Shown one piece after another: positions 4,678 to 20,485 of a stretch of DNA of 20,485 nt (positions within the stretch are counted from its first letter, which is position 1; each line of letters opens with the position of its first letter). The notes beneath the pieces were generated by a model that saw only the letters and a list, made by a program, of their open reading frames with translations, did no database searches and was not told the DNA's origin. A program made the position numbers and the translations under genes. The stretch is taken from positions 1 to 20,485 of IMG/VR virus record IMGVR_UViG_3300045950_000311. One strand, 5' to 3'. Source of the stretch: a virus.

Positions 4678-5121
4678 ATGGTGGCGGGTATTCCACCCAG
4701 CGCGGCGGGCGGCGTCATGGCTGACGCGGCCGCGCTTGAGATCGTCGAGAGGCGCGTCGCCGCCGAACTGCGGCGTGAGCGTGCGGCGGGCCAGCCGCTC
4801 AAGGCCGCGTTCCACGCCGTGGCGCGGCGCCTCGGCCTCAGCCCGCGGCGCGTGCGCGCCTACCACCACCGGGAGGTCGAGGCCGAGGACGTGCGCGCGG
4901 CCGAGCTGCTCGCCGCCCACGCGGCGATGCGGGAGGAGCTGGACGCGCTGTGCGCCCGGCTGGATGCGATCAGGGGGCTGATCGGTGTGGAGATTCCTGG
5001 CGCGACTGGCCGATGGCCGGGCGAGGCGATGGCTCAGGCGCGGGGATCGCGCGGCGGTGAAGGCGGCGTGCTGGCTGCGGGTCGCGGCCTGGCTGCGCGC
5101 CCGGCGGGGGGAAGCCCATGA
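4678..5121 (+). CDS. Helix-turn-helix DNA-binding protein, first gene of rightward early operon
   Basis: A 147-residue protein. The ATG at 4678 is preceded by AGGAAGGAGG at ideal spacing; an internal ATG at 4717 has no comparable site. Residues about 22-65 contain a helix-turn-helix-like segment (AFHAVARRLGLSPRRVRAYH), followed by a coiled helix (EDVRAAELLAAHAAMREEL). The C-terminus is Gly/Ala/Arg-rich and probably disordered. The stop overlaps the next ATG (ATGA). It is probably a transcription regulator of the early operon; the structured leader just upstream is a possible autoregulatory target. The family is not named with confidence. Confidence 0.65.
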   Translation: MVAGIPPSAAGGVMADAAALEIVERRVAAELRRERAAGQPLKAAFHAVARRLGLSPRRVRAYHHREVEAEDVRAAELLAAHAAMREELDALCARLDAIRGLIGVEIPGATGRWPGEAMAQARGSRGGEGGVLAAGRGLAARPAGGSP

Positions 5122-6059
5122 ACGGCATCGGTAGGCCATCGGTCCTGCACCAGCGCATGGCGGCGCTGGTGGCCTTCGTTCGTGCCGAGGCCGCCGCGGG
5201 GCGGCAGGCGCCGGGCAATGCCGCGCTCGCGCGGGTGCTCGGCCTGCGCGGGCTGACCGGCGCGAAGGAAGTGCTGGCGGAGGCCGAGGCGCGCGGGCTG
5301 CTCGTCGTGGAGCGCGGCCCCGCCTGGCGCATCATGTCCGCGCCGGACGGCGCTTGGCGCACCGCCCCGCCCGTGCCGCGGCCGCAGCCGCAGGGCGGGC
5401 GCCCATCCTCCTTCGATGCCGGCGAGGATGCCGCGCTGCGCGCCGCCTGGGCCGAGGGGCTGACGCTCGGCGCCATCGCCGCGCGGCTCGGGCGCAGCCG
5501 CAACAGCATCGCCGGGCGCGTGCGTCGGCTCGGCCTGCCGCCGCGGCCCTCGCCGATCGGCCAGCGCGCGCCCGAGCGCGAGAAGAAGCCCGCGCGCGTG
5601 ACGGTGCGCGACCTGCAGCGCGCCGCGCGCATCGCCGCCCGCCGCGCCGTCGCGCCCATCCGCAGCGATGGCGTGCGGCCCGTCACCTATGCCGGCGCGA
5701 AGGGCCTCGCCCGCGCGCAGGCCAACAGCATCCCGGCGGCGCCTCGCGCGCCCGTCGGCGATCCGGCGCCCGTCCGGTCAACGGGTGGTCTCTTGGACGT
5801 TTCCTCCCTTGACCTACCCCGGCCGGTGGCCCCGGCCGGGGGATTTTCCGGCCCCGGCGGCTGCCGCTGGCCGATGTGGGGAAACCGGGAGCGTCCGAGC
5901 CACGTCTATTGCGGAGCGCCCGTCAGCCACCGGCGGGACGGCACCCCGCGCCCCTACTGCGAGGCGCACGCCGCGCGCGCCTTCACCGACAAGATGGAGG
6001 GCGAGCCCGGCCATGTGATCACGCGCGGCACCTTCGCCTGGGGCGGGGTGCGCGCGTGA
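5118..6059 (+). CDS. GcrA-like cell-cycle regulator fused to an N-terminal winged-helix domain
   Basis: A 313-residue protein in three parts. Residues about 5-75 resemble a LexA/MarR-like winged helix (MAALVAFVRAEAAAGRQAPG, then a LARVLGLRGLTGAKEVLAEA helix pair and a VVERG wing). Residues 98-142 match the GcrA N-terminal helix-turn-helix (WAEGLTLGAIAARLGRSRNS, then IAGRVRRLGL). Residues 247-290 match the GcrA C-terminal module (GCRWPMWGN, then VYCGAPVS, PYCEAHAA) with Cys249, Cys265, Cys281 and His284 spaced for metal binding. Host GcrA recruits sigma-70 RNA polymerase to promoters with methylated GANTC. Here a promoter-control role for phage or host genes is inferred. The extra N-terminal domain and long Arg/Ala linker are unusual. 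ATGA and GTGA overlaps place it inside the operon. Confidence 0.8.
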   Translation: MNGIGRPSVLHQRMAALVAFVRAEAAAGRQAPGNAALARVLGLRGLTGAKEVLAEAEARGLLVVERGPAWRIMSAPDGAWRTAPPVPRPQPQGGRPSSFDAGEDAALRAAWAEGLTLGAIAARLGRSRNSIAGRVRRLGLPPRPSPIGQRAPEREKKPARVTVRDLQRAARIAARRAVAPIRSDGVRPVTYAGAKGLARAQANSIPAAPRAPVGDPAPVRSTGGLLDVSSLDLPRPVAPAGGFSGPGGCRWPMWGNRERPSHVYCGAPVSHRRDGTPRPYCEAHAARAFTDKMEGEPGHVITRGTFAWGGVRA

Positions 6060-7138: not shown

Positions 7139-7692
7139 GCGCCGCGCTCGAAACCCCGCCCGATGACGCCGCCGCCTGGGCGGCCGAGGCCGCGCGCTGG
7201 TGGCAGGAGCGGCATCCGCTCCCGCGCCTCGGCACGCCGGAGGGCGACGCGCCCGCATGGTCCTTCGCCAATGTCTGCGCCGGGTATGACGAGGCCTCGA
7301 TGGCGCGCGTGCTGGTCGAGATGGGGCTGCGGCGCGTCGCGACGCTGGCGCGCGGGGATATCCGCTGGTGGCCGCCGGAATACCACCGTGCCTCCCGCCA
7401 TTGGGAGCGGGAGGAAGCGGCGCGGCTCAACCGCTTCCTCCGTGGCAGCCGTGTCTTCCTGATGCAGGAGCGTGGCGGCGCGGGCCGCGTGATCCCGCCG
7501 CCCGACCTGATGCTCGCCGTGGATGTGGACGCCGGTGCCGGCGCCTGGCGTACGCTCTCGGGCGGTGCCGTGGGGGAGGACTGGATCAGCCTCGGCGCCT
7601 TCTGCTGGCGGGTCGGCCGCGGCGCGGCGGCGGCGCGGATCGTGCGCATCTGCGGCTACAGGAGGTTGCCCCGTGTCGGCGACCTCCGATGA
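7135..7692 (+). CDS. Unknown early phage protein (185 aa)
   Basis: A 185-residue protein starting MSAALETPPDDAAAWAAEAA. It is rich in Trp and Arg (ARWWQERHPLPRLGTPEG, DIRWWPPEYHRASRHWERE), with a C-terminal half of beta-like strands (RVFLMQERGGAGRVIPP, then LMLAVDVDAG). No catalytic motif or known domain is recognised. The ATG overlaps the stop of the 29-residue peptide. Its last 20 bases overlap the start of the replication ATPase gene. It may be a partner of that ATPase, by position only. Confidence 0.65.
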   Translation: MSAALETPPDDAAAWAAEAARWWQERHPLPRLGTPEGDAPAWSFANVCAGYDEASMARVLVEMGLRRVATLARGDIRWWPPEYHRASRHWEREEAARLNRFLRGSRVFLMQERGGAGRVIPPPDLMLAVDVDAGAGAWRTLSGGAVGEDWISLGAFCWRVGRGAAAARIVRICGYRRLPRVGDLR

Positions 7693-8974
7693 CAATGACG
7701 ACTTCGCCGCGGCCGAGGCGGCGGCGATCGCGCAGTTCTCCGTCATCCCCGGCGGGCGGCGCGCGCCGCTGCGGGCCGAGCAGCGCGGCGGGCCGCCGCC
7801 GCTCTGGGTGGAATCGGGCGCCTGGGACGAGAGCGCCATCCCGCCGCGCCCCTGGCTCGCGCGCGGCTACCTGCTGCGCGGCAGCGTCACCGTGCTCGCC
7901 GGGGTGGGCTCGGCGGGCAAGTCATCGCTCTGCGTCTCCTACGCTGTCGCGCTCGCCCTCGGCATGCGCTTCGGGCGGTTCGAGCCGGCCGGGCTGCCGG
8001 AGTTCCAGGATGCCGGCGCGCCGAAGCGCAAGGTGCTGCTCTACAACGTTGAGGATGACGACGACGAGCAGCGCCGCCGCCTCAGCGCCGCGCTGCGCCA
8101 GTTCGGGGCCGCCCCGGCCGATCTCGACGGCCACGTCTTCCGCTGCGGTCCGGCGAGCATCGGCACCCTGCTCGAGCGCGACGCCTACAGCGGCGCCGTG
8201 GGCTTCACCGATGCCTGGCACGCGCTGGAAGGGCTGATCGCGCACCACAAGCCGGACCTCGTGGTCCTCGACCCGCTGGTCGAGCTGCACACGGCCGAGG
8301 AGAACGACAACACCGCGCTGCGCGCCGTCATCGCGCATCTGCGCGGCATCGCCCAGCGGCACCGCTGCGCGCTGGTGCTGGTCCATCACACGCGCAAGGG
8401 CGCCGAGGCGGGGGACATGGAGGGCATCCGCGGCGCCGGCAGCATCGTCGGCGCGGCGCGCATCGCGCTGACCTGCGCGCCCATGACGCGGGAGGAAGCG
8501 GATGCGCTCGGCGTGCCGCTCGATCTCCGGCGGCGCTTCTTCCGGGTGGACAACGCCAAGGCGAACTACTCCCCGGCGACCGAGGCGGCGTGGCACGAGC
8601 TCACGGAATACGAGCTCGACAACGGGGACTACGTGGCCGCGGCCGTGCCCTGGAAACCGCAGGATGGCGCCGCGGCCGGGCCGGGCGGCGCGGCGCCCGA
8701 GGCGCTCGCGCTGCTCGAGGCCGAGGTCGCGCGCGGCACCGAGCACGGACCCTACAGTCCGCGGCTCGAACCGCACGAGCTGCGCAGCGTGGCAGCGGTG
8801 ATGGCGCGGCTCGGGATCGAGAAGCCCGTCGCCCAGCGGTCGGCGCTGCGCTGGCTGATGGGGCGGGGCTTCACCGTGCAGCAATACCGGGACGCGCAGA
8901 GGCGCATCCGCAAGGGCCTGCGTGCCCATGATGGCGGCCCCGAAGCGCGCTGGCTGGATGCGGCCGATGCATAG
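7673..8974 (+). CDS. RepA/AAA_25-type replication ATPase
   Basis: A 433-residue protein starting at GTG 7673 with AGGAGG upstream; the longer ATG frame lacks a ribosome site and lies inside the previous gene. Walker A is GVGSAGKSS (residues 77-85), Walker B LVVLD (196-200), and a VHHTRKG motif (237-243) is typical of RecA-fold hexameric helicases of the RepA/RSF1010 and AAA_25 group. An acidic segment (NVEDDDDEQ, 125-133) matches the conserved glutamate region. The C-terminal third (EPHELRSVAAVMARLGIEKP onward) may be a helix-turn-helix. These proteins unwind DNA at phage or plasmid origins. A dense repeat array follows directly, supporting origin firing as the role. Confidence 0.85.
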   Translation: MSATSDDNDDFAAAEAAAIAQFSVIPGGRRAPLRAEQRGGPPPLWVESGAWDESAIPPRPWLARGYLLRGSVTVLAGVGSAGKSSLCVSYAVALALGMRFGRFEPAGLPEFQDAGAPKRKVLLYNVEDDDDEQRRRLSAALRQFGAAPADLDGHVFRCGPASIGTLLERDAYSGAVGFTDAWHALEGLIAHHKPDLVVLDPLVELHTAEENDNTALRAVIAHLRGIAQRHRCALVLVHHTRKGAEAGDMEGIRGAGSIVGAARIALTCAPMTREEADALGVPLDLRRRFFRVDNAKANYSPATEAAWHELTEYELDNGDYVAAAVPWKPQDGAAAGPGGAAPEALALLEAEVARGTEHGPYSPRLEPHELRSVAAVMARLGIEKPVAQRSALRWLMGRGFTVQQYRDAQRRIRKGLRAHDGGPEARWLDAADA

Positions 8975-9111
8975 GCAGGAATGGACCGCCCCGAAAGCGC
9001 CCCGAAAGCGCCCCGAAGTGGAGGGGCGCGGCGCAACTTCGGGGCGCCCCGAAAGCGCCCCGAAAGCGCCCCGGAAATCAGGGGGCGGCGCAACTTCGGG
9101 GCGGGGGCAAG

Positions 9112-9131
9112 AATGGCGGAAAACCGCCATT
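9112..9131 (+). terminator. Hairpin with AAAA loop, possible terminator or origin structure
   Basis: AATGGCGG, AAAA, CCGCCATT forms a perfect 8-bp stem, followed by TTC (TTTTC when the last stem T bases are counted). The short T-run makes it a weak intrinsic terminator for the early operon; it may instead be a structural part of the origin. Confidence 0.4.
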
Positions 9132-9146
9132 TTCGGGGGCCTCGCC

Positions 9147-9175
9147 TACGCGCGTGCGCGCGTGCGCGCGCGCAC
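9147..9175. other. 29-bp alternating purine-pyrimidine tract (Z-DNA-prone)
   Basis: Strict alternation from T9147 to C9175, almost all CG and GT steps. Such tracts flip to left-handed DNA under negative supercoiling. It lies inside the candidate origin, between two hairpins. Confidence 0.7.
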
Positions 9176-9189
9176 CCCCTTCGGGGGTG
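9173..9189 (+). terminator. Hairpin CACCCCC-TTC-GGGGGTG followed by GGGTTTTC
   Basis: A 7-bp perfect stem with a TTC loop, then GGG and four T bases. The loop overlaps a near-copy of the origin repeat in inverted orientation. It could end early transcription or be an origin structure. Confidence 0.35.
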
Positions 9190-9307
9190 GGGTTTTCGGG
9201 GCGCTTGCGGGGCGCCCCCGGAAAAGCGCCCCGAAGAGCGCCCCGGCCTGGGGGCCGGAGCGACTTCGGGGCGGTCTTCGGGGCGGCGGCATCAGGCGGG
9301 GGTGGGC

Positions 9308-9979: not shown

Positions 9980-10576
9980 TTGCTGACCGTCTCCGTCAGC
10001 GCCGATTTCGAGCGCCTGCGCCTCACCCTCGATGACTTCGGCCGCCGTCAGCTCCCCTACGCCGCAGCCCGTGCCTTGACCGCCACGGTCCAGGGCGCCC
10101 GGCGTGAGGTGCAGGAAGGCATGCCGCGGGTGTTCGACCGCCCGACGCCCTTCACGCAGCGCGGCATATCCATCCGCTCCGCGACGCGGAACAACCTCGA
10201 AGCCGCCGTGCTGGTCCTGCCGGTGCAGGCCTCCTACCTCCGCATCCAGGAGCAGGGCCTTCGCCGTGAGCCGAAGCGCCGCGCGCTGGTCACGCCGGCT
10301 GCGGTTCGCCTGAACCAGTATGGCAACATCCCGGCCCGTGCCCTGGCTCGGATGAAGGGCCGATCGGATGTCTTCGTGGGCACGGTGAGAGGCATCGGCG
10401 GCTTCTGGCAGCGCCTGCCGGATCGAGGTCTGCGCCTGTTAGCCCGCTTCGAGGGGCCGAAGAAGGGCGCCGAGCGCCCCTTCTTCTTCCCCGCGGTCGA
10501 GCGATCCCTGCGCCGCGACTTCAACCGCCTCATGGGCGACGCGCTGGCCGAGGCGCTGCGGACGGCCAGGCCCTAG
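9980..10576 (+). CDS. Phage virion-associated protein (tail/neck-type, unnamed family)
   Basis: A 198-residue protein starting at TTG 9980 with GGGGGGCAGG upstream; the ATG at 9958 is in another frame. The phrases VFDRPTPFTQRGISIR, NNLEAAVLVLPVQASYLRIQ, a PAAVRLNQYGNIPARAL segment and GGFWQRLPDRGLRLL recur in a family of phage proteins of about 200 residues found in lambda-like and mosaic prophages near head or tail genes. A structural, tail or neck role is inferred from that context only. It is the first gene of the late region, just before the small terminase. Confidence 0.6.
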   Translation: MLTVSVSADFERLRLTLDDFGRRQLPYAAARALTATVQGARREVQEGMPRVFDRPTPFTQRGISIRSATRNNLEAAVLVLPVQASYLRIQEQGLRREPKRRALVTPAAVRLNQYGNIPARALARMKGRSDVFVGTVRGIGGFWQRLPDRGLRLLARFEGPKKGAERPFFFPAVERSLRRDFNRLMGDALAEALRTARP

Positions 10577-10717
10577 GGGGGGGCTCCGGGTCCTTCCCGC
10601 CGGACGCCCCACCGCGCGTATTTCGCGCCGCGGTCGGACGCCGAATTTTTGTGCAGAAACAATGGGTTCTGTTGTGGTTCGCTTTGCGGTTTGCGCGCGA
10701 CCTTGGAGGTGAGGCCG
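10577..10717. other. Non-coding gap before terminase genes, candidate cos/late-promoter region
   Basis: The 141-bp gap contains a hyphenated palindrome ACCGCG...CGCGGT (10611-10634, 12-bp centre), a direct repeat CGGACGCC (10601-10608 and 10635-10642), an AT-rich island from about 10644 and an imperfect inverted repeat CAGAAAC/GGTTCTG (10654-10671). In lambda the cos cleavage and small-terminase binding sites lie directly upstream of the small terminase gene, so this is the expected place. No convincing sigma-70 promoter can be read. Confidence 0.35.
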
Positions 10718-11299
10718 ATGCCCACGGTCAATCTCGATGAGATGGCTAGGGTGCTCCGCGTGTCCCTTCCTACCCTCCGTGCGTGGATCAGGCGGCACCC
10801 CGACTTCCCCGTCGTGGCTGAGGGGCGCAACGGGCTCCCCTGGGAACTCGATCCCGAGGCGGTCATCGCATTCGTCCGCCGTAAGAATGATGAGGAGGCT
10901 GCCAGGCAAGCGGAGCGCGATGACCTTCTTGCCCAGATCAGCCTGCCGATCGAGGATCTGGTGCCGGCCGAGAACCGTGGTCTCACGGCGGCCGAGCGGC
11001 TCAAGCTCGCGCAGGCGATGCGCGTGGAGGATGAGGTCGCGAAGCAGCGCGCCTTCCTCGTCCAGACTTCCGAGATGCGTGCCCGCCTCACGGATGCCTG
11101 GGGGCCGCTGAACCAGTTCCTTCAGTCGCTGCCCGGCCAGCTTGGCCGCCGCCATAACCTGCCCGATGCAGTCGTCCGCGACATGCGCCGGGCCATAGAG
11201 ACGCAGCAGCGGGAGCTGCACCGGCGCTTGGTGGATCTGCTCGATCCCGGTGCCGCAGCGCCGCCGCACGAGGAAGAGGAGCATGCCGCAGCCGCCTGA
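10718..11299 (+). CDS. terS: Terminase small subunit, Nu1-like
   Basis: A 193-residue protein starting MPTVNLDEMARVLRVSLPTL, with GGAGGTGAGG upstream of ATG 10718. Residues 3-55 form a winged helix-turn-helix (TLRAWIRRHPDFPVVAEGRN, then LPWELDPEAVIAFVRRK) like lambda Nu1 and other phage DNA-packaging small subunits. The middle (LTAAERLKLAQAMRVEDEVA) and C-terminal helices (MRRAIETQQRELHRRLVDLL) fit oligomerisation and binding to the large subunit. It selects phage DNA at the packaging site for the terminase motor. The last 17 bases overlap the large subunit gene, as expected for a terminase pair. Confidence 0.85.
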   Translation: MPTVNLDEMARVLRVSLPTLRAWIRRHPDFPVVAEGRNGLPWELDPEAVIAFVRRKNDEEAARQAERDDLLAQISLPIEDLVPAENRGLTAAERLKLAQAMRVEDEVAKQRAFLVQTSEMRARLTDAWGPLNQFLQSLPGQLGRRHNLPDAVVRDMRRAIETQQRELHRRLVDLLDPGAAAPPHEEEEHAAAA

Positions 11300-13409
11300 C
11301 CCGGCGCGCTTCGCCTATGCCGATGCGCGGCGCATCCTGCGCGAAACGCTGGATGCGCTGCTTCCGCCGCGGCGCATGTCGGTCGCCGATCACGCGGCGC
11401 TGCATCGCTGGGTGAAGTCCCCGGTCGGCGCGCACATGGAGCGATGGGATCATCGCACCGCGCCCTACCTTCGCGAGCCGATGGAGTGGCTATCCTCGGA
11501 CGATTACGACACGGTCGCGATCGTCGGGCCTGGTGCTTGCGGCAAGACGATGCTGGCCGAGAACTGGCTGCTCTACAGCATCGACGCCGACCCGGCGGAC
11601 CTGCTGTGGTATATGCAGACCGACCCGGCCACCGAGGCCTATGTGAAGGGCCGGATCGAGCCGATGCTCGAGGCGCATGAGCGCCTGATCGGCGACCGGC
11701 GCCACGGCCGCGACAGCGTGGCCTTCAAGCGGTTCCGCGGCATGCGGGCGGAGTTCCTGACCTTCACGGCCTCCGCGCTGGTCAACAAGCACGTCGCGCG
11801 CATCGTTGCGGACGAGATCGACAACTACGACGAGAGCCTGGGCGACCCGCTGGCGCTGCTGAACCCGCGTCGCCAGGCCGCCGGGGCGGATTCGAAGCTG
11901 CTGCTGATCAGCCATCCCGACCGTGGCGCCCCGCCGGACGCCCCGCGGGCGCGGCAGCGCGGCATCATGGCGGTCTACGCCGACAGCACGCGCTGCACCT
12001 GGTGGTGGCGCTGCCCGCATTGCGGTGCCTACTCGTCGCCGCATCCCGGCACGGCGCGGCGCATGGTGCTCGACTGGCCGCAGGACGCGCCGCTCGACGT
12101 GATCCAGCGGGAAGCGCGGCTGGTATGTCCGGCCAATGGCTGCCTGATCGAGGACGGCGAGCGCCACGCCATGAACCTCACCGGCAAGTGGGTCGGGGCG
12201 GGCGAGACGATCGACGAGGGCGGCCGGATCGAAGGCGAGCGCATCAGGACCCGCACCGCCGGGGCCTGGATTCTCGGCGTCATGTCGCCCTTCACGAAGG
12301 ACGGCATCGGCGGCCTGGCCCGCGCCCGTGCCGCGGCCGAGCGGGCGGCAGAACTGGGCGAGATCGAGGGCCTGCGCCAGGTCATGGTGAAGAGCTGGGG
12401 CGAGCCCTACGCCCCGCCCGCCCGGCTCGGCAGCGTGGATGCCGCCGTTCTGGCCGAGCGCGCGGAAGAGGGGCTGCGGCTCGGCTTCGTGCCGGATGGG
12501 GTGCGCTTCCTGACCGCCTGGGCGGACGCGCAGGGCAGCCGGTTCGAGGTGCTGGTCCGCGGATGGGGGCCGGGCGGCGAATCCTGGGTCGTTGATCACC
12601 AGGTGATCCCTGCCGAGCCGGCGACGAACCCGGATGACTGGGATGCGCTGATCGAGCGGCTGACCGAGGGCGCATTCCCCCTTGCCGACGGCAGCGGGCG
12701 CGTGATGCGGCTGCGCGGCGCCGGCTTCGATGCCTACGGCCAGCCGGGCGTGACGGAGCAGGCCTATGCGGCCTGGCTCCGCGCCCGCAAGGCCGGGAAG
12801 GTGAAGCGCCTGGGCGTGGTGGAACACCGCGACGTGTGGTCCCTGGTGCCGACCAAGGGCGCGCCGGGGCGAGCGGCGCCGCGCATCCAGGTGGTCTATC
12901 CGAACAGCCAGCGGAAGGACCGCCGCGCGACCGCGCGGGGGCAGGCGCCGCTGCTGCTGTTCAACGCGAACGGGGCGAAGGACGCGCTGGCAGCGCAGCT
13001 CGCGGTCGCCCCGCCATCGGTGGGTGCCGTGCATATCCCGCGCGGGCTGCTGAGCCCGGCGGGGCCGCCGCACGACTTCCTCGAGCAGCTCTTGGCCGAG
13101 GCCCGCAACCCGACCACCGGGGCGTGGGAGAAGGTGGAGAAGGCCCGGCGCAACGAGGCGCTGGACCTGATGGTGGGCTGCGAGGTGGTGGCGCGGCTGC
13201 ACGGGCTGCACCGGATCGACTGGGAGGCGCCGCCGGCCTGGGCGTCGCGGTGGGAGAGCAACAGCGCCGTCGCGCCGGCCTCCGCCGCAGAGGATGCGCG
13301 CGATCTGGCGCCGCCGCCGGCCGCCGTGGTGGCGGCGGTGCCGCAGCGCCCGGCAACGGTGGCGATGCGCGGGCGCGGGGTGATCGGTATGGGCCGCAGG
13401 CTCGGTTGA
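11283..13409 (+). CDS. terL: Terminase large subunit, GpA family
   Basis: A 708-residue packaging ATPase/nuclease starting at ATG 11283 with GAAGAGGAG upstream. Walker A is VGPGACGKT (residues 81-89), Walker B ARIVADEID (172-180). The GpA-family Cys pairs CPHC (244-247) and CPANGC (282-287) suggest a metal-binding insertion. The nuclease half starts near FLTAWADAQGSRFEVLVRGW, whose Asp fits the RNase-H-fold active site. Length is normal for lambda GpA-type enzymes. It cuts concatemeric DNA and drives it into proheads through the portal. The C-terminal 50 residues are Ala/Pro-rich. Frame and motifs are intact, so packaging function appears preserved although capsid genes are lost. Confidence 0.93.
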   Translation: MPQPPDPARFAYADARRILRETLDALLPPRRMSVADHAALHRWVKSPVGAHMERWDHRTAPYLREPMEWLSSDDYDTVAIVGPGACGKTMLAENWLLYSIDADPADLLWYMQTDPATEAYVKGRIEPMLEAHERLIGDRRHGRDSVAFKRFRGMRAEFLTFTASALVNKHVARIVADEIDNYDESLGDPLALLNPRRQAAGADSKLLLISHPDRGAPPDAPRARQRGIMAVYADSTRCTWWWRCPHCGAYSSPHPGTARRMVLDWPQDAPLDVIQREARLVCPANGCLIEDGERHAMNLTGKWVGAGETIDEGGRIEGERIRTRTAGAWILGVMSPFTKDGIGGLARARAAAERAAELGEIEGLRQVMVKSWGEPYAPPARLGSVDAAVLAERAEEGLRLGFVPDGVRFLTAWADAQGSRFEVLVRGWGPGGESWVVDHQVIPAEPATNPDDWDALIERLTEGAFPLADGSGRVMRLRGAGFDAYGQPGVTEQAYAAWLRARKAGKVKRLGVVEHRDVWSLVPTKGAPGRAAPRIQVVYPNSQRKDRRATARGQAPLLLFNANGAKDALAAQLAVAPPSVGAVHIPRGLLSPAGPPHDFLEQLLAEARNPTTGAWEKVEKARRNEALDLMVGCEVVARLHGLHRIDWEAPPAWASRWESNSAVAPASAAEDARDLAPPPAAVVAAVPQRPATVAMRGRGVIGMGRRLG

Positions 13410-13422
13410 GGGGACGATCGGC

Positions 13423-13644
13423 ATGGATGCGGTTCTGGCCTGGGCGCTCGCGCAGGCAGCTGGCACGCGCTGGCGCGAGCTGGCCGAGGCGTATGTCAGC
13501 GGCGCCACCCGCGTGACCTTCGAGGGCCGAACGGTCGAATACCGCAGCCGTGCGGACATGGAGGCGATCCTGCGCGCCGGTTTCAATGCCGAGAACCCGC
13601 AGGCGCGGCGCGGCCCGCGCATCTCGCTGGGCGCCGGCCGATGA
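13423..13644 (+). CDS. gpW-like head-tail joining protein
   Basis: A 73-residue protein starting MDAVLAWALAQAAGTRWREL. The core YVSGATRVTFEGRTVEYRS, then a helix (RADMEAILRAGFN) and the ending ARRGPRISLGAGR match the order of lambda gpW: helix, beta hairpin, helix, Arg-Gly-Pro tail. gpW closes the filled head and lets the tail attach. Position between terminase and portal is the lambda order. The stop overlaps the portal ATG (ATGA). Confidence 0.8.
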   Translation: MDAVLAWALAQAAGTRWRELAEAYVSGATRVTFEGRTVEYRSRADMEAILRAGFNAENPQARRGPRISLGAGR

Positions 13645-15260
13645 ACCTCATCGACCGCGCGATCGGCTTCATCTCCCCGGTGCGGCAGGTGGAGCGCGCG
13701 CGGGCGCGCCTGCAACTGCGCCGCATCGAGGTGGCCGCCTCGGCCATGTCGGGATACGAGGCGGCGAAGCGCGAGCGCGCGGCGCTGCGCTACTTCAACG
13801 CGAGCCCCCGCACGGCGGACGAGGATGTCCTGCCGGGGCTCGATGCCCTGCGCGCGCGCTCGCGGCAGATGATGATGAACGCGCCCATCGCCCGCGGGGC
13901 GGTGCAGACGGCGGTGACGAACGTGGTCGGTGCCGGCCTCCGCGTCTCGGCGCAGCCTGATCGCGCCGCACTGCGCACCCTGGCGAGCGTGTCGGAGATC
14001 CAGGTCGGCGCGTTCGAGGATGCGGCGCAGCGCGAATGGCGGCTGTTCAACAGGAAGGAGCACGCCGACATCCACGCCCGGCTGTCCTTCCGCCGCATGC
14101 AGGACCTGGTGTTCCGCTCGGTGCTGGTCTCGGGCGACTGCTTCGTTGCGGTCGTGCAGGCCCGCAAGGGCACGCCTTTCGACTTCGCGCTTCAGGTGAT
14201 CGAGGCGGACCGCGTCTGCAACCCGAACTACCGCAGCGACACCGAGACCCTGGCCGGCGGCATCGAATACGACGATGCGGGGACGCCGGTCGCGATCCAT
14301 GTGGCGGAGATCCCGCGCGGCGGCGGCGCGAAGCGCAACTGGCGGCGCCTGCCGATGCGCGCGCCGGATGGCGCGCCCCGCGTGCTGCACCTGATGCAGC
14401 AGGAGAGGATCGGCCAGAGCCGTGGCGTGCCCTATCTCGCGCCGGTCATCGGGCCGCTGAAGGATCTCGACCGATACAGCGAGGCGGAACTGACGGCCGC
14501 GGTCCTGAACGCCTCCATCGCCATCGTCTCGCAGAATGCCGACGGCGCCGCCGACATTGCCGAGAATGCGGCCCGCACCGGGCAGGCGCAGCCGGGCTTC
14601 CTGCGGGCGAACATCGAGTTCGAGCCCGGCATGGTGCTCGAAGGCTTCGCGCCGAACGAGGGCCCGAAGTCCTTCGCCGCCGACCGACCGAATGCGGGCT
14701 TCGATCCCTTCGTCCAGGCGGTGCTGCGGCAGGTGGGCGTCGCGCTCGAACTGCCGTTCGAGGTGCTGGTGAAGCACTTCACTGCCTCCTACTCGGCCGC
14801 GCGCGCGGCGCTGCTTCAGGCGTGGTCGTTCTTCCGCGTCCGCCGCGAATGGCTCGCCGAGGAACTGTGCCAGCCGGTCTATGAGCTGGTGCTGCGCAAC
14901 GCGATCCTGCGCGGCCGGGTCGCGGCGCCGGGTTTCCTCGAGGATGCCGCCATGCGGGCCGCGTGGTCCGCGACGCGATGGACCGGCCCCTCCATGGGCC
15001 AGATCCAGCCGCAGACGGAAATCCGTGCGGCGCGGGAGGCGGTCGAGGCTCGCTTCGCCTCCCGCACCCGCATCGCCGCCGAGATATTCGGCGACGACTG
15101 GGAAGCGGTGGAGGACGAGCTCGCCTGGGAAGACGAGCGCATCGGAGGCGCGCGGCCGGGGGACCCGCTCACCGGGCGCGGCGCGCCGCCGCCGGTCGAG
15201 CAGCCATCCGATGCCGGCGACGCCGAGGACGAGACCGAGCAGGAAAGGAACGCCGCATGA
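13641..15260 (+). CDS. Portal protein, lambda gpB family
   Basis: A 539-residue protein starting MNLIDRAIGFISPVRQVERA. Lambda-portal family features are present: LRARSRQMMMNAPIARGAVQ followed by NVVGAGLRVSAQPD near residues 70-110, the SVLVSGDCFVAVVQ strand pair (162-180), HLMQQERIGQSRGVPYLAPV (about residues 250-270), the helix ALLQAWSFFRVRREWLAEEL and the acidic C-terminal tail. Twelve copies form the ring through which DNA enters the head. Length is normal for the family. The start overlaps gpW and the stop overlaps the protease start. The reading frame is intact. Confidence 0.92.
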   Translation: MNLIDRAIGFISPVRQVERARARLQLRRIEVAASAMSGYEAAKRERAALRYFNASPRTADEDVLPGLDALRARSRQMMMNAPIARGAVQTAVTNVVGAGLRVSAQPDRAALRTLASVSEIQVGAFEDAAQREWRLFNRKEHADIHARLSFRRMQDLVFRSVLVSGDCFVAVVQARKGTPFDFALQVIEADRVCNPNYRSDTETLAGGIEYDDAGTPVAIHVAEIPRGGGAKRNWRRLPMRAPDGAPRVLHLMQQERIGQSRGVPYLAPVIGPLKDLDRYSEAELTAAVLNASIAIVSQNADGAADIAENAARTGQAQPGFLRANIEFEPGMVLEGFAPNEGPKSFAADRPNAGFDPFVQAVLRQVGVALELPFEVLVKHFTASYSAARAALLQAWSFFRVRREWLAEELCQPVYELVLRNAILRGRVAAPGFLEDAAMRAAWSATRWTGPSMGQIQPQTEIRAAREAVEARFASRTRIAAEIFGDDWEAVEDELAWEDERIGGARPGDPLTGRGAPPPVEQPSDAGDAEDETEQERNAA

Positions 15261-16681
15261 GCGCGCGCCTTGCGGAGCGGATCGCCAGCGTGCCCTGGCT
15301 GATCCTCGAGCCGGCCTTCCAGTCCCTCCTTGAGATCGCCAGCCGCGAGACGCCGGACCCGGACAACCTCGAGGCCTGGAAGGCCCTGCTCGCGCCCGCG
15401 CCAATGGCGGTGGACCTGCGCGCATCCTCCCCGCTGCCGGGTGCGCGGCGCGCCCAGCTTCGCGACGGCGTGGCGATCATCCGCATCAGCGGCCCCATCT
15501 TCCGCCATGCCGGTCTGTTCACCGAGCTTTCGGGTGCCACTGCGCTTGCCGATGTGGCGCTCGATCTCGGCCTCGCGCGGGATGACGGGCGGGTGAAGGC
15601 CATCCTTCTCGCCGTGGACAGCCCCGGCGGGGAGGCGACCGGCGTCGGGGACGCGGCGGAAGCCATCCGGGCGGCTGCGGCCATCAAGCCCGTCGCGGCG
15701 CATGTCGAGGGCGTCGCGGCCTCGGCGGCCTTCTGGCTGGCCGCGGGGGCGAGCGAGATCGTGGCGGCGCCCGAGGCCTTCGTCGGCTCCATCGGCGTCG
15801 TCATGCGCATGACCGACACCCGCGAGCGGGATGCCCGCAGCGGCGTGCGCGCGCACCAGTTCGTGTCGAGCCAGACGCCGGGCAAGCGCCCGGACCCCGC
15901 GACGGACGATGGCCGGCGGCAGATCCAGCGCCTGGTAGACAGCCTGGCCGGCGAGTTCGTCGCCGCCGCCGCGCGCCTGCGGGGGATGGAGGAGGACGCC
16001 CTTCTCGCCGCCACCCATGGCGGCGGGCTGGTGATCGGGCGGGAGGCGCTGGCCTCCGGCCTGGTCGATCGCCTCGGCAGCTTCGAGGAAACCCTGGCCC
16101 GCCTGGCCGCCGGCGCGGTGCCGCTGGCCGCAAGCAACCCGTCGCCTGGGCCGCGACGGCTGAAGGAGAACGTGACCATGACCAATCCCGCGCCCGCGCC
16201 GCAGGCCGAGGCCGAGACCCAGGCGCCCGCGCCCGCGCCCGCCGCCGCGAGCCAGCCGGCCGCGCCCGTCGCCGCTGCGGCGGAAGGCGGCGCCACCGAC
16301 CCGCAGGCGGCCGAGCGCGCGCGCTGCGCGGCCATCCTCGCCGCCCAGAAGCCCGGCTTCCAGCAGCTCGCCTCGCTCGCCATCGCGCAGGGCTGGTCGC
16401 CGCAGGTCTTCGCCCAGGCGCAGGATGCCTCGGCCGCCGCGGTGGCGGAGGCGACGCGCGCGGCGCAGGCGCAGGCCTTCGCGGCCAGCATGCCGGCCCC
16501 GGTCGCCGGCGCGGCCGAGCAGCCCGAGGCGTCCGCGCTGCCTGTCGAGCAGCGGGCCAAGGCCGAATGGGACAAGGACGCCAGGCTGCGCGCCGAGTTC
16601 GGCAACGACTTCAAGTCCTACCTCGCCTTCGCGAAGGCGCAGGACGGCAAGGTCGTGAAGCTCATCTCCCGCCCCGCCTGA
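15257..16681 (+). CDS. S49-family prohead protease with C-terminal scaffold domain (lambda gpC-like)
   Basis: A 474-residue protein. The S49/SppA fold is clear: LLAVDSPGGEATGVGDAAEA (118-137), nucleophile Ser156 in GVAASAAFWLA, then PEAFVGSIGVVM (172-183) and Lys210 in TPGKRPD, 54 residues after the Ser, the expected Ser-Lys dyad spacing. Residues 308-474 are Ala/Gln/Pro-rich and helical (QKPGFQQLASLAIAQGW, EWDKDARLRAEFGNDFKSYL), like a scaffold. In lambda, gpC processes head proteins and carries the Nu3 scaffold as its 3' end. The partner major capsid protein is missing downstream. Confidence 0.88.
   Translation: MSARLAERIASVPWLILEPAFQSLLEIASRETPDPDNLEAWKALLAPAPMAVDLRASSPLPGARRAQLRDGVAIIRISGPIFRHAGLFTELSGATALADVALDLGLARDDGRVKAILLAVDSPGGEATGVGDAAEAIRAAAAIKPVAAHVEGVAASAAFWLAAGASEIVAAPEAFVGSIGVVMRMTDTRERDARSGVRAHQFVSSQTPGKRPDPATDDGRRQIQRLVDSLAGEFVAAAARLRGMEEDALLAATHGGGLVIGREALASGLVDRLGSFEETLARLAAGAVPLAASNPSPGPRRLKENVTMTNPAPAPQAEAETQAPAPAPAAASQPAAPVAAAAEGGATDPQAAERARCAAILAAQKPGFQQLASLAIAQGWSPQVFAQAQDASAAAVAEATRAAQAQAFAASMPAPVAGAAEQPEASALPVEQRAKAEWDKDARLRAEFGNDFKSYLAFAKAQDGKVVKLISRPA
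16178..16681 (+). CDS. Nested in-frame scaffold protein (Nu3-like)
   Basis: Inside the protease gene an ATG at 16178 is in frame (codon 308) and preceded by AAGGAGAA at normal spacing, matching a real ribosome site inside a coding region. It would make a 167-residue protein containing only the Ala/Pro linker (PAPAPQAEAETQAPAPAP) and the helical scaffold segment. In lambda the scaffold Nu3 is made this way from inside gene C. A separate scaffold product is inferred from the start signal. Confidence 0.6.
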   Translation: MTNPAPAPQAEAETQAPAPAPAAASQPAAPVAAAAEGGATDPQAAERARCAAILAAQKPGFQQLASLAIAQGWSPQVFAQAQDASAAAVAEATRAAQAQAFAASMPAPVAGAAEQPEASALPVEQRAKAEWDKDARLRAEFGNDFKSYLAFAKAQDGKVVKLISRPA

Positions 16682-16691
16682 TCATCCAGCC

Positions 16692-16715
16692 GCGCGGGCC
16701 GGGTGCCGGCCGCGC
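16692..16715 (+). other. GC-rich hairpin before the decoration gene
   Basis: GCGCGGGCCGG and CCGGCCGCGC pair around GTG with one bulged G. It lies in the 62-bp gap between the protease stop and the decoration gene, upstream of GAAGGAGA. It could adjust relative expression of the two genes. Confidence 0.4.
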
Positions 16716-16743
16716 CATCGTTCCATCCTGAAGGAGACCAGCC

Positions 16744-17089
16744 ATGGCGCAGCTCGCCGCCAACCTGCAGCGCACCTACGTGCTCGGCGACGAGGCCGAG
16801 TATCCCGCCTCCACCGGCGCCGTCTATGAGGGCAGCGCGGTCGGCCTCACCTCCGGCTACGCCCGCCAGCTCGTCGCCGGGGACCCCTTCGTCGGCTTCG
16901 CCGTGCAGGGCTGCCCCGCCAGCGGCGCGAACGGCACCAACACCGTGACCGTGAAGCTGGAAGGCCGCGTGATCGTGCCCATCTCGGGCATCGCGCTGAC
17001 GAACGTGAACGCCCCGGTCTATGCCAGCGACGGCAACACCTTCACCCTCACGCAGTCCACGAACACGCTGATCGGCAAGGTCGTGCGCG
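16744..17089 (+). pseudogene. Capsid decoration/cement protein, 3' end lost at a deletion junction
   Basis: The start ATG 16744 has GAAGGAGACC upstream. About 115 codons look like a head-decoration protein: MAQLAANLQRTYVLGDEAEY, GDPFVGFAVQGCPASGANG, TVTVKLEGRVIVPISGIALT, FTLTQSTNTLIGKVVR. Position after protease/scaffold is the lambda gpD slot. After GKVVR the frame changes character (Gly/Arg-rich, RVGGGCRGRMGRRGGRP), and a baseplate fragment is open in another frame, so the gene is cut. The exact end is uncertain by about 15 bp. The uninterrupted frame actually reads on to 17667, so a chimeric product could still be made. The next expected gene, major capsid protein, is absent. Confidence 0.6.
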
Positions 17090-17230
17090 TCGGCGGTGGA
17101 TGTCGCGGCCGAATGGGGCGGCGCGGCGGGCGACCAGTTGCGCATGGTGGTGACGATCCGGCGGGAGGCCGATGGCCGCCGCGCCTCGGAGGTGTTCGAG
17201 ATGGTCTGGGCTGCGGAGGCATCGCGATGA
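17090..17230 (+). pseudogene. C-terminal fragment of a gp46-like baseplate protein
   Basis: In the +1 frame relative to the decoration gene, the sequence reads SAVDVAAEWGGAAGDQLRMV, then VTIRREADGRRASEVFEMVW and stops at 17228-17230. This resembles the C-terminus of Mu gp46/GP46-family baseplate proteins (a V-D-V-x-x-E strand, then a strand ending F-x-x-V-W). It has no start codon or ribosome site and begins at the junction. Its stop overlaps the ATG of a gp47-like gene, which is the native Mu-type gene order, so the fragment and its right neighbour came together from a tail module. Confidence 0.55.
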
Positions 17231-17508
17231 GTTTCCCGCGCCCCACCCTTTCCGCCCTGCGCGAGCTGGCGCGCAACGAGGTCGCGGCCCGGCTGCCCGG
17301 CGCCGACCCGGCGCTGCGGCGCTCGGCCATCATGGTGCTGGCCGAGACGCTCGCCGGCCTCGCGCATCACCAGTATGGCTACCTCGACTTCATCGCCCGC
17401 CAGGTGATCCCCGACACGGCGGAAGGCGAATACCTCGACCGCTGGTGCCGGATGGTCGGGCTGCAGCGCAAGCCGGCAACGGCGGCGGCGGGCAGCGTCA
17501 CCTTCCCC
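17227..17508 (+). pseudogene. Baseplate J/gp47-like protein, truncated after about 94 codons
   Basis: Starts MSFPRPTLSALRELARNEVA at ATG 17227, overlapping the gp46 stop. The N-terminal pattern is that of Mu gp47/baseplate J proteins: LPGADPALRRSAIMVLAETL, HHQYGYLDFIARQVIPDTAE, LDRWCRMVGLQRKPATAAAG and SVTF. Full-length family members have about 350-400 residues. Here the family match ends at SVTF, and the frame continues only as Arg-rich nonsense to 17667. The rest of the gene, and the genes that follow it in tail operons, are missing. Confidence 0.7.
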
Positions 17509-17590
17509 GCTGGTCGCCGCCATCGCGGCCGAGCTCGATCTCGACGCGCCGGCGCTCGACGCCCTCTTCGCTGCCGCCGCGCAGCTCTGA
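17507..17590 (+). pseudogene. C-terminal fragment of another gene, family unknown
   Basis: Directly after the gp47 match, a different frame reads PLVAAIAAELDLDAPALDAL, then FAAAAQL and a TGA at 17588-17590. The composition and codon use are natural, but there is no start codon or ribosome site. It looks like the helical C-terminus of a protein whose front part was deleted. The family is not identified. Confidence 0.4.
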
Positions 17591-17645
17591 CCTTCGCGCG
17601 CGGGCAGCGCGCGCCCCGACAACCGCATCAGCAGGAGCACGTCGC

Positions 17646-17894
17646 ATGGCCGTCCATGTGCGCATGAAGGAAGACGCGGCCGGGCTGCGGATGGGGGAGG
17701 ACGCCTCCCTCGACGCCGCCACCGCCAGGGCGCTGCACGCCGCAGGCAAGCTGTGGATCGTGGGCGGCGACCCCGCCGAGATCGAGGCCGCCGGCCTCGC
17801 ATGCGACGCCGAGGTGGGCCCGCCCGTGCGCTACGCCCCGCGGCCCGAGGCCGAAGAGTCCGTCAAGAGCGCCACCCCGGCGCAGGAGGGCTGA
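17646..17894 (+). CDS. Small unknown protein (82 aa), probably tail-region accessory
   Basis: An 82-residue protein starting MAVHVRMKEDAAGLRMGEDA at ATG 17646, with GCAGGAG upstream. A helix-rich middle (ATARALHAAGKLWIVGGDPA, then EIEAAGLACDAEVGPPVRY) ends in an acidic, low-complexity tail. The family is not recognised. Its reading frame is complete. In the deleted context it is the first intact gene after the junctions, so its usual neighbours are probably lost tail genes. Confidence 0.55.
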   Translation: MAVHVRMKEDAAGLRMGEDASLDAATARALHAAGKLWIVGGDPAEIEAAGLACDAEVGPPVRYAPRPEAEESVKSATPAQEG

Positions 17895-17897
17895 TCC

Positions 17898-18242
17898 ATG
17901 CTGGTGCGATGCCTCTCGGCCCTCACGGGCTACCGCTTCCCCGATGCCGCCTATGCGCGGGCCTGGCTGCGCGGGCAGGCGGGCTTCCTGCTCTCGCGCG
18001 GGCTCTCGCGCATCGGCCTCGGCGGGCTGATGGCGCCCCGCGCGCGCTTCGACTTCGAGCATCGCGCGCCGGATGGCAGGCTGCTCGCCTCCTGGGCGGC
18101 GTTCAACCTGGTGACCACGGTCGGCAAGACCGACATCGTGGCGGCCGAGGCCGGGCACTACGCGGTGCGCGCGACCTGCACCGGCCCCACCAGCGCGGCG
18201 AGCGAGACGGCATTCGAGGTGCTGCCAGGCGCCTTCGCCTGA
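17898..18242 (+). CDS. Phage protein, possibly a fusion of unrelated pieces (114 aa)
   Basis: The frame starts at ATG 17898 with GGAGGG upstream and is intact, but three parts look unlike each other. Residues 1-43 (MLVRCLSALTGYRFPDAAYA, then RAWLRGQAGFLLSRGLSRIG) are basic. Residues 45-81 (MAPRARFDFEHRAPDGRLLA, then ASWAAFNLVTTVGKTDIV) resemble the start of phage proteins with the phrase NLVTT-x-GK. Residues 82-114 (AAEAGHYAVRATCTGPTSAA, then a FEVLPG ending) look like the last beta strands of another protein. In-frame deletions could have joined them. Alternatively it is one genuine small protein. Function is unknown. Confidence 0.45.
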   Translation: MLVRCLSALTGYRFPDAAYARAWLRGQAGFLLSRGLSRIGLGGLMAPRARFDFEHRAPDGRLLASWAAFNLVTTVGKTDIVAAEAGHYAVRATCTGPTSAASETAFEVLPGAFA

Positions 18243-19125: not shown

Positions 19126-19323
19126 ATGTCCGATGCCGCCGCCGCGACCTCCGCGGCGCTTCCTGTCGTGCGCCAGATCGTCCAGCACCTCGCGGGCGTG
19201 GTCCTGGGCGCGGGCGCAATAACGGAGAACGAAGCCGCCGTCGTGGCCGGGGCCATCGTCGCGGTCGCAAACCTCGCCTGGATGCTGGTGGCGCGGGCGA
19301 AGGCGCAGAAGGCCGGGCCGTGA
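19126..19323 (+). CDS. Holin candidate (Pam3 gp28-like)
   Basis: A 65-residue protein starting MSDAAAATSAALPVVRQIVQ at ATG 19126, GGAG upstream. One or two hydrophobic helices (HLAGVVLGAGAITENEAAVV and AGAIVAVANLAWMLVARAKA) are joined by an acidic turn, with a basic C-terminus. Size, helical layout and place before spanins and endolysin fit small phage holins of the Pam3 gp28-like group. Holins form membrane lesions that release the endolysin. The stop overlaps the GTG of the spanin gene. Confidence 0.6.
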   Translation: MSDAAAATSAALPVVRQIVQHLAGVVLGAGAITENEAAVVAGAIVAVANLAWMLVARAKAQKAGP

Positions 19324-19526
19324 GCCTGGAACTCATCCTGGCCGCCCTCGTGGGCGTGGTCACGCTCGTCGTCGGGGCCTTCATGCGCGGCTCGAAAGCA
19401 GGCCGCGACGGCGCGGCGGCCGAGGCCGCGCGCAGGCGATCCGAAGCAGAGGAGAGGGGCAATGCGGCTGCTGCCGATGCTGGCCGTGACGGCGCTGCTG
19501 AGCGCCTGCGGCGCGGCGATTTCTGA
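19320..19526 (+). CDS. Rz-like inner-membrane spanin
   Basis: A 68-residue protein starting at GTG 19320, overlapping the holin stop. An N-terminal membrane anchor (MSLELILAALVGVVTLVVGA) is followed by a highly charged, Ala/Arg/Glu-rich helical periplasmic part (AAEAARRRSEAEERGNAAAA). This is the layout of Rz-type i-spanins, though shorter than the usual 120-150 residues. An outer-membrane lipoprotein gene overlaps its end in another frame, as in Rz/Rz1 pairs. The pair would link and fuse the two membranes at lysis. Confidence 0.65.
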   Translation: MSLELILAALVGVVTLVVGAFMRGSKAGRDGAAAEAARRRSEAEERGNAAAADAGRDGAAERLRRGDF

Positions 19527-19665
19527 CCGGCCCGCCTGCCGGGTCACGGAGTTCCCGCGCGACTTGCAGATGCAGGCGGCGGAGGAGCTCCGCACCGCCC
19601 CGGCGCTGCGGACGATGATGGACGCCATGGCGCAGGACCGGGCGTTCAACCGGGCGGTGCGCTGA
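19462..19665 (+). CDS. Rz1-like outer-membrane spanin lipoprotein
   Basis: A 67-residue protein starting MRLLPMLAVTALLSACGAAI at ATG 19462 with GGAGAGGGG upstream. A lipoprotein signal ends in the lipobox LLSAC, with Cys16 the lipidation site. The mature 52 residues are charged and helical. The first 65 bp overlap the i-spanin in another frame, the classic Rz1 position. It lacks the proline richness of lambda Rz1. Its stop overlaps the endolysin ATG (TGATG). Confidence 0.7.
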   Translation: MRLLPMLAVTALLSACGAAISDRPACRVTEFPRDLQMQAAEELRTAPALRTMMDAMAQDRAFNRAVR

Positions 19666-20378
19666 TGAGCCTCGATCAGCTCCGCGCCCTGTTCGCGCGC
19701 CCGCATCCGGTCCATGACGCGGGCATCGCGCAGGGCACCGTGCCCGTCCAGGCAGTGGGCGAGCCGAACTGGCGCGCCATCCTCGCCGCCGCCGGGATGG
19801 TCCGCCCGGAGGCATGGGCGGCCGTCATCGCCGGGCCGGCGCGGCGCTATGGCATCAACAACCGCCTGCGCGCCTGCGCCTTCGCCGCCACCATCGCCCA
19901 CGAGAGCGGCGGCGGGGCGCGGATGGTCGAGAGCCTGAACTACCGCCCCGAGGCGCTTCTGGCGACGTGGCCGCACCGTTTCAGCCCTGAGGATGCGCGG
20001 CGCATGGGGCGGGCGGACGGCAAGCCGGCCGATCAGCGCGCCATTGCCGAGCGTGCCTATGGTGGGCGGATGGGCAACGGGCCGGAGGGCTCGGGCGATG
20101 GCTGGCGATATCGCGGGCGGGGGCTGATCCAGCTCACCGGCCGCGACGCCTATCGCCGCGCCGGGCAGGCGACGGGCCTGCCGCTGGAGGATCAGCCCGA
20201 GATCGCTGAGCAGGAAGGCGTGGCGGCCGAGGTCGCGTGCTGGACCTGGGGCGCGTGGAAGGGCTGCAACCCACTGGCGGACGCCGAGGATGTTGACGGG
20301 TGGCGGCGAGCCATCAACGGCGGGCTGAACGGCCTGGGCGACGTGAAGGCGCGCTACGCGGCGGCGCTGGCGGCCTGA
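19665..20378 (+). CDS. GH19 chitinase-like endolysin
   Basis: A 237-residue muralytic enzyme starting MSLDQLRALFARPHPVHDAG. GH19-type motifs: catalytic Glu80 in FAATIAHESGGG, then LNYRPEALLATWPHRF, GNGPEGSGDGWRYRGRGLIQ and LTGRDAYRRAG (the family phrase YRGRGLIQLTG). There is no signal peptide, so release depends on the holin. The first 60 residues before the domain are Ala/Pro-rich. GH19 phage lysins cleave peptidoglycan glycan strands. Start and stop overlap neighbours as TGATG, placing it firmly in the lysis operon. Confidence 0.9.
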   Translation: MSLDQLRALFARPHPVHDAGIAQGTVPVQAVGEPNWRAILAAAGMVRPEAWAAVIAGPARRYGINNRLRACAFAATIAHESGGGARMVESLNYRPEALLATWPHRFSPEDARRMGRADGKPADQRAIAERAYGGRMGNGPEGSGDGWRYRGRGLIQLTGRDAYRRAGQATGLPLEDQPEIAEQEGVAAEVACWTWGAWKGCNPLADAEDVDGWRRAINGGLNGLGDVKARYAAALAA

Positions 20379-20485
20379 TGCTGGAAGCCTTCGCCGCGGC
20401 GCTGGTGGGAGAGCTGGTGGCGCTGGTCGTGGCGCTGATGCTGGTGGCGTTTGCCGCCGGCGTGTTGGTGGGGCGGCGGATGTGA
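20378..20485 (+). CDS. 35-residue membrane peptide at window end
   Basis: The ATG overlaps the endolysin stop (TGATG) and the TGA is the last codon of the window. The product reads MLEAFAAALVGELVALVVAL then MLVAFAAGVLVGRRM: one long hydrophobic helix with a basic Arg-Arg end. It may be a second holin-type or antiholin-type peptide; the translational coupling to the endolysin supports a lysis role, but this is inference. Confidence 0.55.
   Translation: MLEAFAAALVGELVALVVALMLVAFAAGVLVGRRM

Follow-up and report, generated by a model that had tools for sequence, protein, structure and literature searches.

Defective (cryptic) prophages are characterized by large deletions in the late region, near identity of the remainder to an intact relative, and the lack of a functional virion. 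In one survey, the genes that disappeared preferentially from incomplete prophages were those for terminase, portal, and lysis, with tail-fibre genes retained (PMC7744054). Phage satellites (P4, PICI, and PICMI) possess no capsid genes of their own, and defective interfering viral genomes, for which a general definition is available (PMC11281779), have lost genes for shared products. The stretch of DNA analysed here, referred to as the window, is the complete linear IMG/VR record IMGVR_UViG_3300045950_000311 (20,485 bp). An earlier note had described it as a packaging-and-lysis element, either satellite-like or a decaying prophage, in which a head decoration gene is joined to the end of a baseplate gene. 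We conclude, with a probability of roughly two thirds, that two recent deletions in a temperate phage left a defective derivative, likeliest a decaying prophage in a lysogen.

The window and its intact relatives

The window is best read as a fragment of a temperate contractile-tailed phage (myovirus) with a host presumably among the Acetobacteraceae. The tail genes of this phage are of the Mu type, and its terminase (gpA) and portal are of the lambda type. In the left half, a GcrA-like regulator and an AAA_25 ATPase are encoded; the former is a phage-borne homologue of the GcrA cell-cycle regulator (5118-6059; Pfam GcrA, 1.5e-12). Many short near-repeats (~60-bp copies of 80-92% identity, plus an inverted piece) lie at 8985-9275, between the AAA_25 gene and the gene that follows. 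At ~2.0-2.7 kb, two divergently encoded HTH proteins (a carph-isopro domain and a weak RstR-like match) would be consistent with a switch between lysis and lysogeny. Neither an integrase nor an attachment site or flanking host sequence was recognised in this linear fragment.

Two intact sister contigs, G001 (IMG/VR 3300044998_000766, 27,900 bp) and G002 (IMG/VR 3300045912_000331, 24,427 bp), come from two samples other than that of the window. Over the shared parts adjoining the junctions the window is 99.8-99.9% identical to them, and both encode the same portal as the window. The gene order is uninterrupted in both across the first junction; G001 stops short of the second, for which the comparison rests on G002. 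Window positions 1 to ~1144 have no counterpart in G001, positions 1145-1411 are ~80% identical, and the sequence beyond is identical at >99.9%, so that position ~1411 appears to mark a mosaic boundary. As its left end (1-1411) is unlike that of G001, the window represents a distinct strain. At 10576, the G run that follows the stop of the ORF 9980-10576 has one G more than its counterparts in both sisters, with the gene unaffected. Within the decoration gene, G002 7777-7877 (window 16957-17057) carries five C-to-T differences in 101 bp on the coding strand, three of them consecutive (CCC to TTT), relative to both G001 and the window. The other differences between G001 and G002 amount to two sites in 18 kb (a ragged contig end aside), one of which is also C to T.

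More distant relatives were found on Neoroseomonas contigs of 50-446 kb, two of which (L014 and L015) carry terminases of 73-74% identity. The order of portal, protease, tail terminator, sheath, and tube in G002 is shared by L014, L015, and several other viral contigs. Since the relatives, including the Neoroseomonas prophages, keep the intact order, the intact arrangement is ancestral and that of the window derived. A megablast search of annotated phages gave no match to the right half of the window, and two sample numbers gave no hits in a literature search. The lysis cassette (19138-20482) is ~90% identical to IMGVR_UViG_3300045922_000286 and 3300044961_000427; these two contigs are otherwise different phages, and the cassette is probably a recently exchanged module. 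Two candidates for full-length sisters (G003 and G004) were rejected, as only the lysis cassette (~90%) is common to them and the window.

Retained genes, lost genes, and the two junctions

The late genes and junctions are as follows.

10670..11299, + strand: HTH protein, probable small terminase subunit, Nu1-like by its position upstream of the large terminase gene (HTH_17, E=1.6e-4, below the curated cut-off)
11250..13409, + strand: terminase large subunit (gpA type), intact (Pfam GpA_nuclease 7.9e-59, GpA_ATPase 1.9e-50)
13641..15260, + strand: portal protein (lambda family), intact (Pfam Phage_portal_2 2.7e-90; full-length match to G002)
15257..16681, + strand: head maturation protease (S49), intact (Pfam Peptidase_S49 8.3e-26; phrog_53 1.1e-75)
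16744..17092, + strand: head decoration/cement protein, truncated after codon 116 of 130 (phrog_1731 3.4e-14)
17090..17092, no strand: deletion junction 1, 9,202 bp absent relative to G001 and G002, shared 3-bp TCG
17090..17230, + strand: 3' remnant of a Mu gp46-like baseplate wedge gene, last 46 of 157 codons, no start (intact copy phrog_180 3.4e-44)
17227..17505, + strand: 5' remnant of a Mu gp47-like baseplate gene, first 93 of 351 codons
17504..17505, no strand: deletion junction 2, 3,775 bp absent relative to G002, shared 2-bp TC
17504..17590, + strand: 3' remnant of the gene past the tail fibre, phrog_6034-like (G002 20956-21387)
17646..18242, + strand: two small genes past the fibre genes, intact, 82 and 114 aa (100% to G002)
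19665..20378, + strand: endolysin (glycoside hydrolase 19 / phrog_181), intact (100% to G002)

Terminase, portal, protease, and lysis genes had been described as unbroken, and terminase, portal, protease, and endolysin indeed match G002 over their full length. For the large terminase subunit, 100% of the residues were matched in both sisters, and the S49 protease was 100% to G002. Packaging, lysis, replication, and regulation can all be specified by the remaining genes of the window, whereas a particle cannot.

The switch from the decoration gene to the end of gp46, previously placed at about 17089, was found within three bases of that position: the decoration-gene match to G001 and G002 stops at 17092, and the gp46-like match starts at 17090. 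In both sisters, window sequence 16600-17092 is followed by 9,202 extra bases before the window sequence resumes, which supplies the size of the missing segment that the earlier note had proposed to obtain from intact relatives. The uncut decoration gene (130 aa) lies at G002 7564-7956. The gp46-like remnant is in a different frame from the decoration gene and, as had been claimed, has no start of its own; the next ATG, that of the gp47-like gene, comes at 17227. At junction 2, this gp47-like gene is joined to the end of the gene past the tail fibre. Between the two gaps the window keeps an island of about 0.41 kb, which is identical to G002, and to the right of the island it differs from G002 at 1 base in 2,976. 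Both deletion lengths are 1 modulo 3, so that each shifts the frame. By chance, the decoration ORF comes to be in frame with the gp47 remnant by way of ~46 wrong-frame codons, resulting in an ORF at 16744-17667.

Together, the two deletions amount to 12,977 bp and take in almost every gene for the head shell, tail, and baseplate. The first segment of G002 contains the final 14 decoration codons, the major head protein (phrog_371, 7e-54), and a small head gene, followed by the tail terminator, sheath (phrog_165, 3e-171), tube (phrog_185), and tape measure. Its baseplate part consists of hub genes (phrog_184 and phrog_177), a gene for baseplate assembly, and the initial 111 codons of the gp46-like gene (phrog_180). 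The presumed loss of capsid, connector, sheath or tube, tape-measure, and baseplate genes at this position was thus matched by major head, tail, and baseplate genes within the 9,202-bp segment, which bears out the earlier account of missing and kept genes. In the second segment are the final three quarters of the gp47-like gene, followed by the genes for a gp48-like wedge protein (phrog_203) and the tail fibre and by the greater part of the gene past the fibre. None of the deleted proteins was found elsewhere in the window by tblastn. Essential virion genes are therefore absent relative to a closely related intact phage, as in a deletion derivative.

Origin of the junctions

BLAST overlaps at the junctions measured 11 and 6 bp but include mismatched positions, and the two sides agree exactly over 3 and 2 bp. 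For deletions placed randomly in G002, the chance of at least 3 shared bases is 0.10 at the size of the first deletion, and that of at least 2 is 0.22 at the size of the second. As this is chance level, neither the collapse of a repeat nor homologous recombination was the cause, and repeat-mediated deletion was ruled out. The earlier suspicion of a deletion relative to intact phages was strongly supported by G001 and G002, and the caveat of assembly collapse over a repeat falls away with the 3 and 2 shared bases. Chance-level sharing and the frame shifts fit illegitimate recombination. In the mechanism we propose, two internal deletions would have hit the phage by end joining or slippage with almost no sequence homology, stripping 12,977 bp of head-shell, tail, and baseplate genes. 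The remnant genome could not form virions without an intact relative and would persist as a decaying prophage in a lysogen. As the rest is near-identical to the sisters and the remaining late genes are undamaged, the loss is recent.

A different account holds that the junctions are artefacts, chimeric library molecules or assembler gap closure having joined three true pieces of the intact phage (up to 17092; 17090-17505; and from 17504). This we consider unlikely, though a serious competitor. The junctions are seen in one contig, the cuts fall in genes at random, and the kept island of ~0.41 kb is near a typical short-read insert. Furthermore, the near-identical intact phages occur in two other samples, and the only other samples with the phage of the window show the intact form. 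30-mers across both junctions were found in no other viral contig of IMG/VR searched, a search from which records very near the window were possibly omitted. Against the artefact, 3 and 2 shared bases would not allow an assembler to connect the pieces by k-mer or overlap, and hence junction-crossing reads should have existed. Two independent chimeras in a single contig, both beating the intact path, would be improbable, and the window belongs to a distinct strain that differs from G001 at the left end. Two ordered, oriented deletions in one contig that passes both suggest that the deleted form dominated the sample of the window. We infer that both junctions, known from one contig alone, are present in real molecules; on the whole, the deletions are quite probably real.

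Lifestyle and comparison with known systems

The window most likely persists as a decaying prophage, and this part of the earlier alternative between a satellite-like element and a decaying prophage stands as the likeliest reading. The satellite-like part found no positive support, given the recent loss, cuts inside genes with remnants left behind, no hallmark gene among those scanned, and the single contig.

It is improbable that the window is a helper-dependent element, that is, a defective-interfering or satellite-like derivative that retains packaging signal, terminase, and lysis genes and is packaged into the virions of an intact sister (G001 or G002, for instance). In its favour, the genes for terminase, portal, protease, and endolysin are complete, and near-identical phages able to supply every missing part do exist. 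Among the genes scanned, however, no satellite hallmark (e.g., Sid, Psu, a redirecting or capsid-remodelling gene) was found; these genes match ordinary phage families or nothing. Remnants of four genes persist in the window, and the junctions have no second occurrence. Additionally, the deleted genome would be ~13 kb shorter than its parent, of which at least 33.5 kb is spanned. Lambda-type cos packaging accepts a limited range of lengths, and the deleted genome would fall below it if the rule of lambda applies. Marginally less probable still is a natural defective-interfering derivative that shed the entire virion-body block, kept packaging and lysis genes, and is spread by virions of its intact sister.

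Programmed or site-specific excision, or homologous recombination between repeats, is extremely improbable as the agent that removed the virion genes: an 8-bp word (GCGTCGCC) does occur near both ends of deletion 1, but it lies 5 bases off the actual joint, shared words of at least 8 bases within 15 bp of both ends arise in ~5% of randomly chosen pairs given the high GC content of the genome, deletion 2 has only a 4-bp shared word near its ends, and the two joints are unlike each other, out of frame, inside genes, and absent from other contigs.

As a decaying prophage, the window would document an early stage of phage decay, in which the parent form is known at ~99.9% identity and the size, content, and mechanism of the loss are consequently readable per base. 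Were the deleted form shown to travel in parent particles, a natural cheater of a tailed phage would have been found, and with it a model for the origin of satellites. On present evidence the window amounts to a common type of deletion derivative or else to an artefact, and its chief use lies in a caution against naming such contigs satellites.

Among known systems, the Neoroseomonas prophages (L014 and L015/L023) resemble the window in their related terminase (73-74%) and in the same order of portal, protease, tail terminator, sheath, and tube; unlike in the window, the deleted region is intact in them over the part examined. With defective interfering genomes the window shares the deletion of genes for shared products and, probably, the retention of cis signals. 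Similarly to P4, PICI, and PICMI, it has no capsid genes of its own, but the gene remnants and the near identity to an intact phage point to a recent deletion and not to a satellite shaped by evolution. The large late-region deletions, the near identity of the rest to an intact relative, and the lack of a functional virion are features of defective prophages, although the window keeps the terminase, portal, and lysis genes, unlike those in the survey (PMC7744054). This reversed pattern of retention is probably a matter of where two random cuts happened to land; as a single case, it says little for or against. The event is of a known type, in a phage that is itself new.
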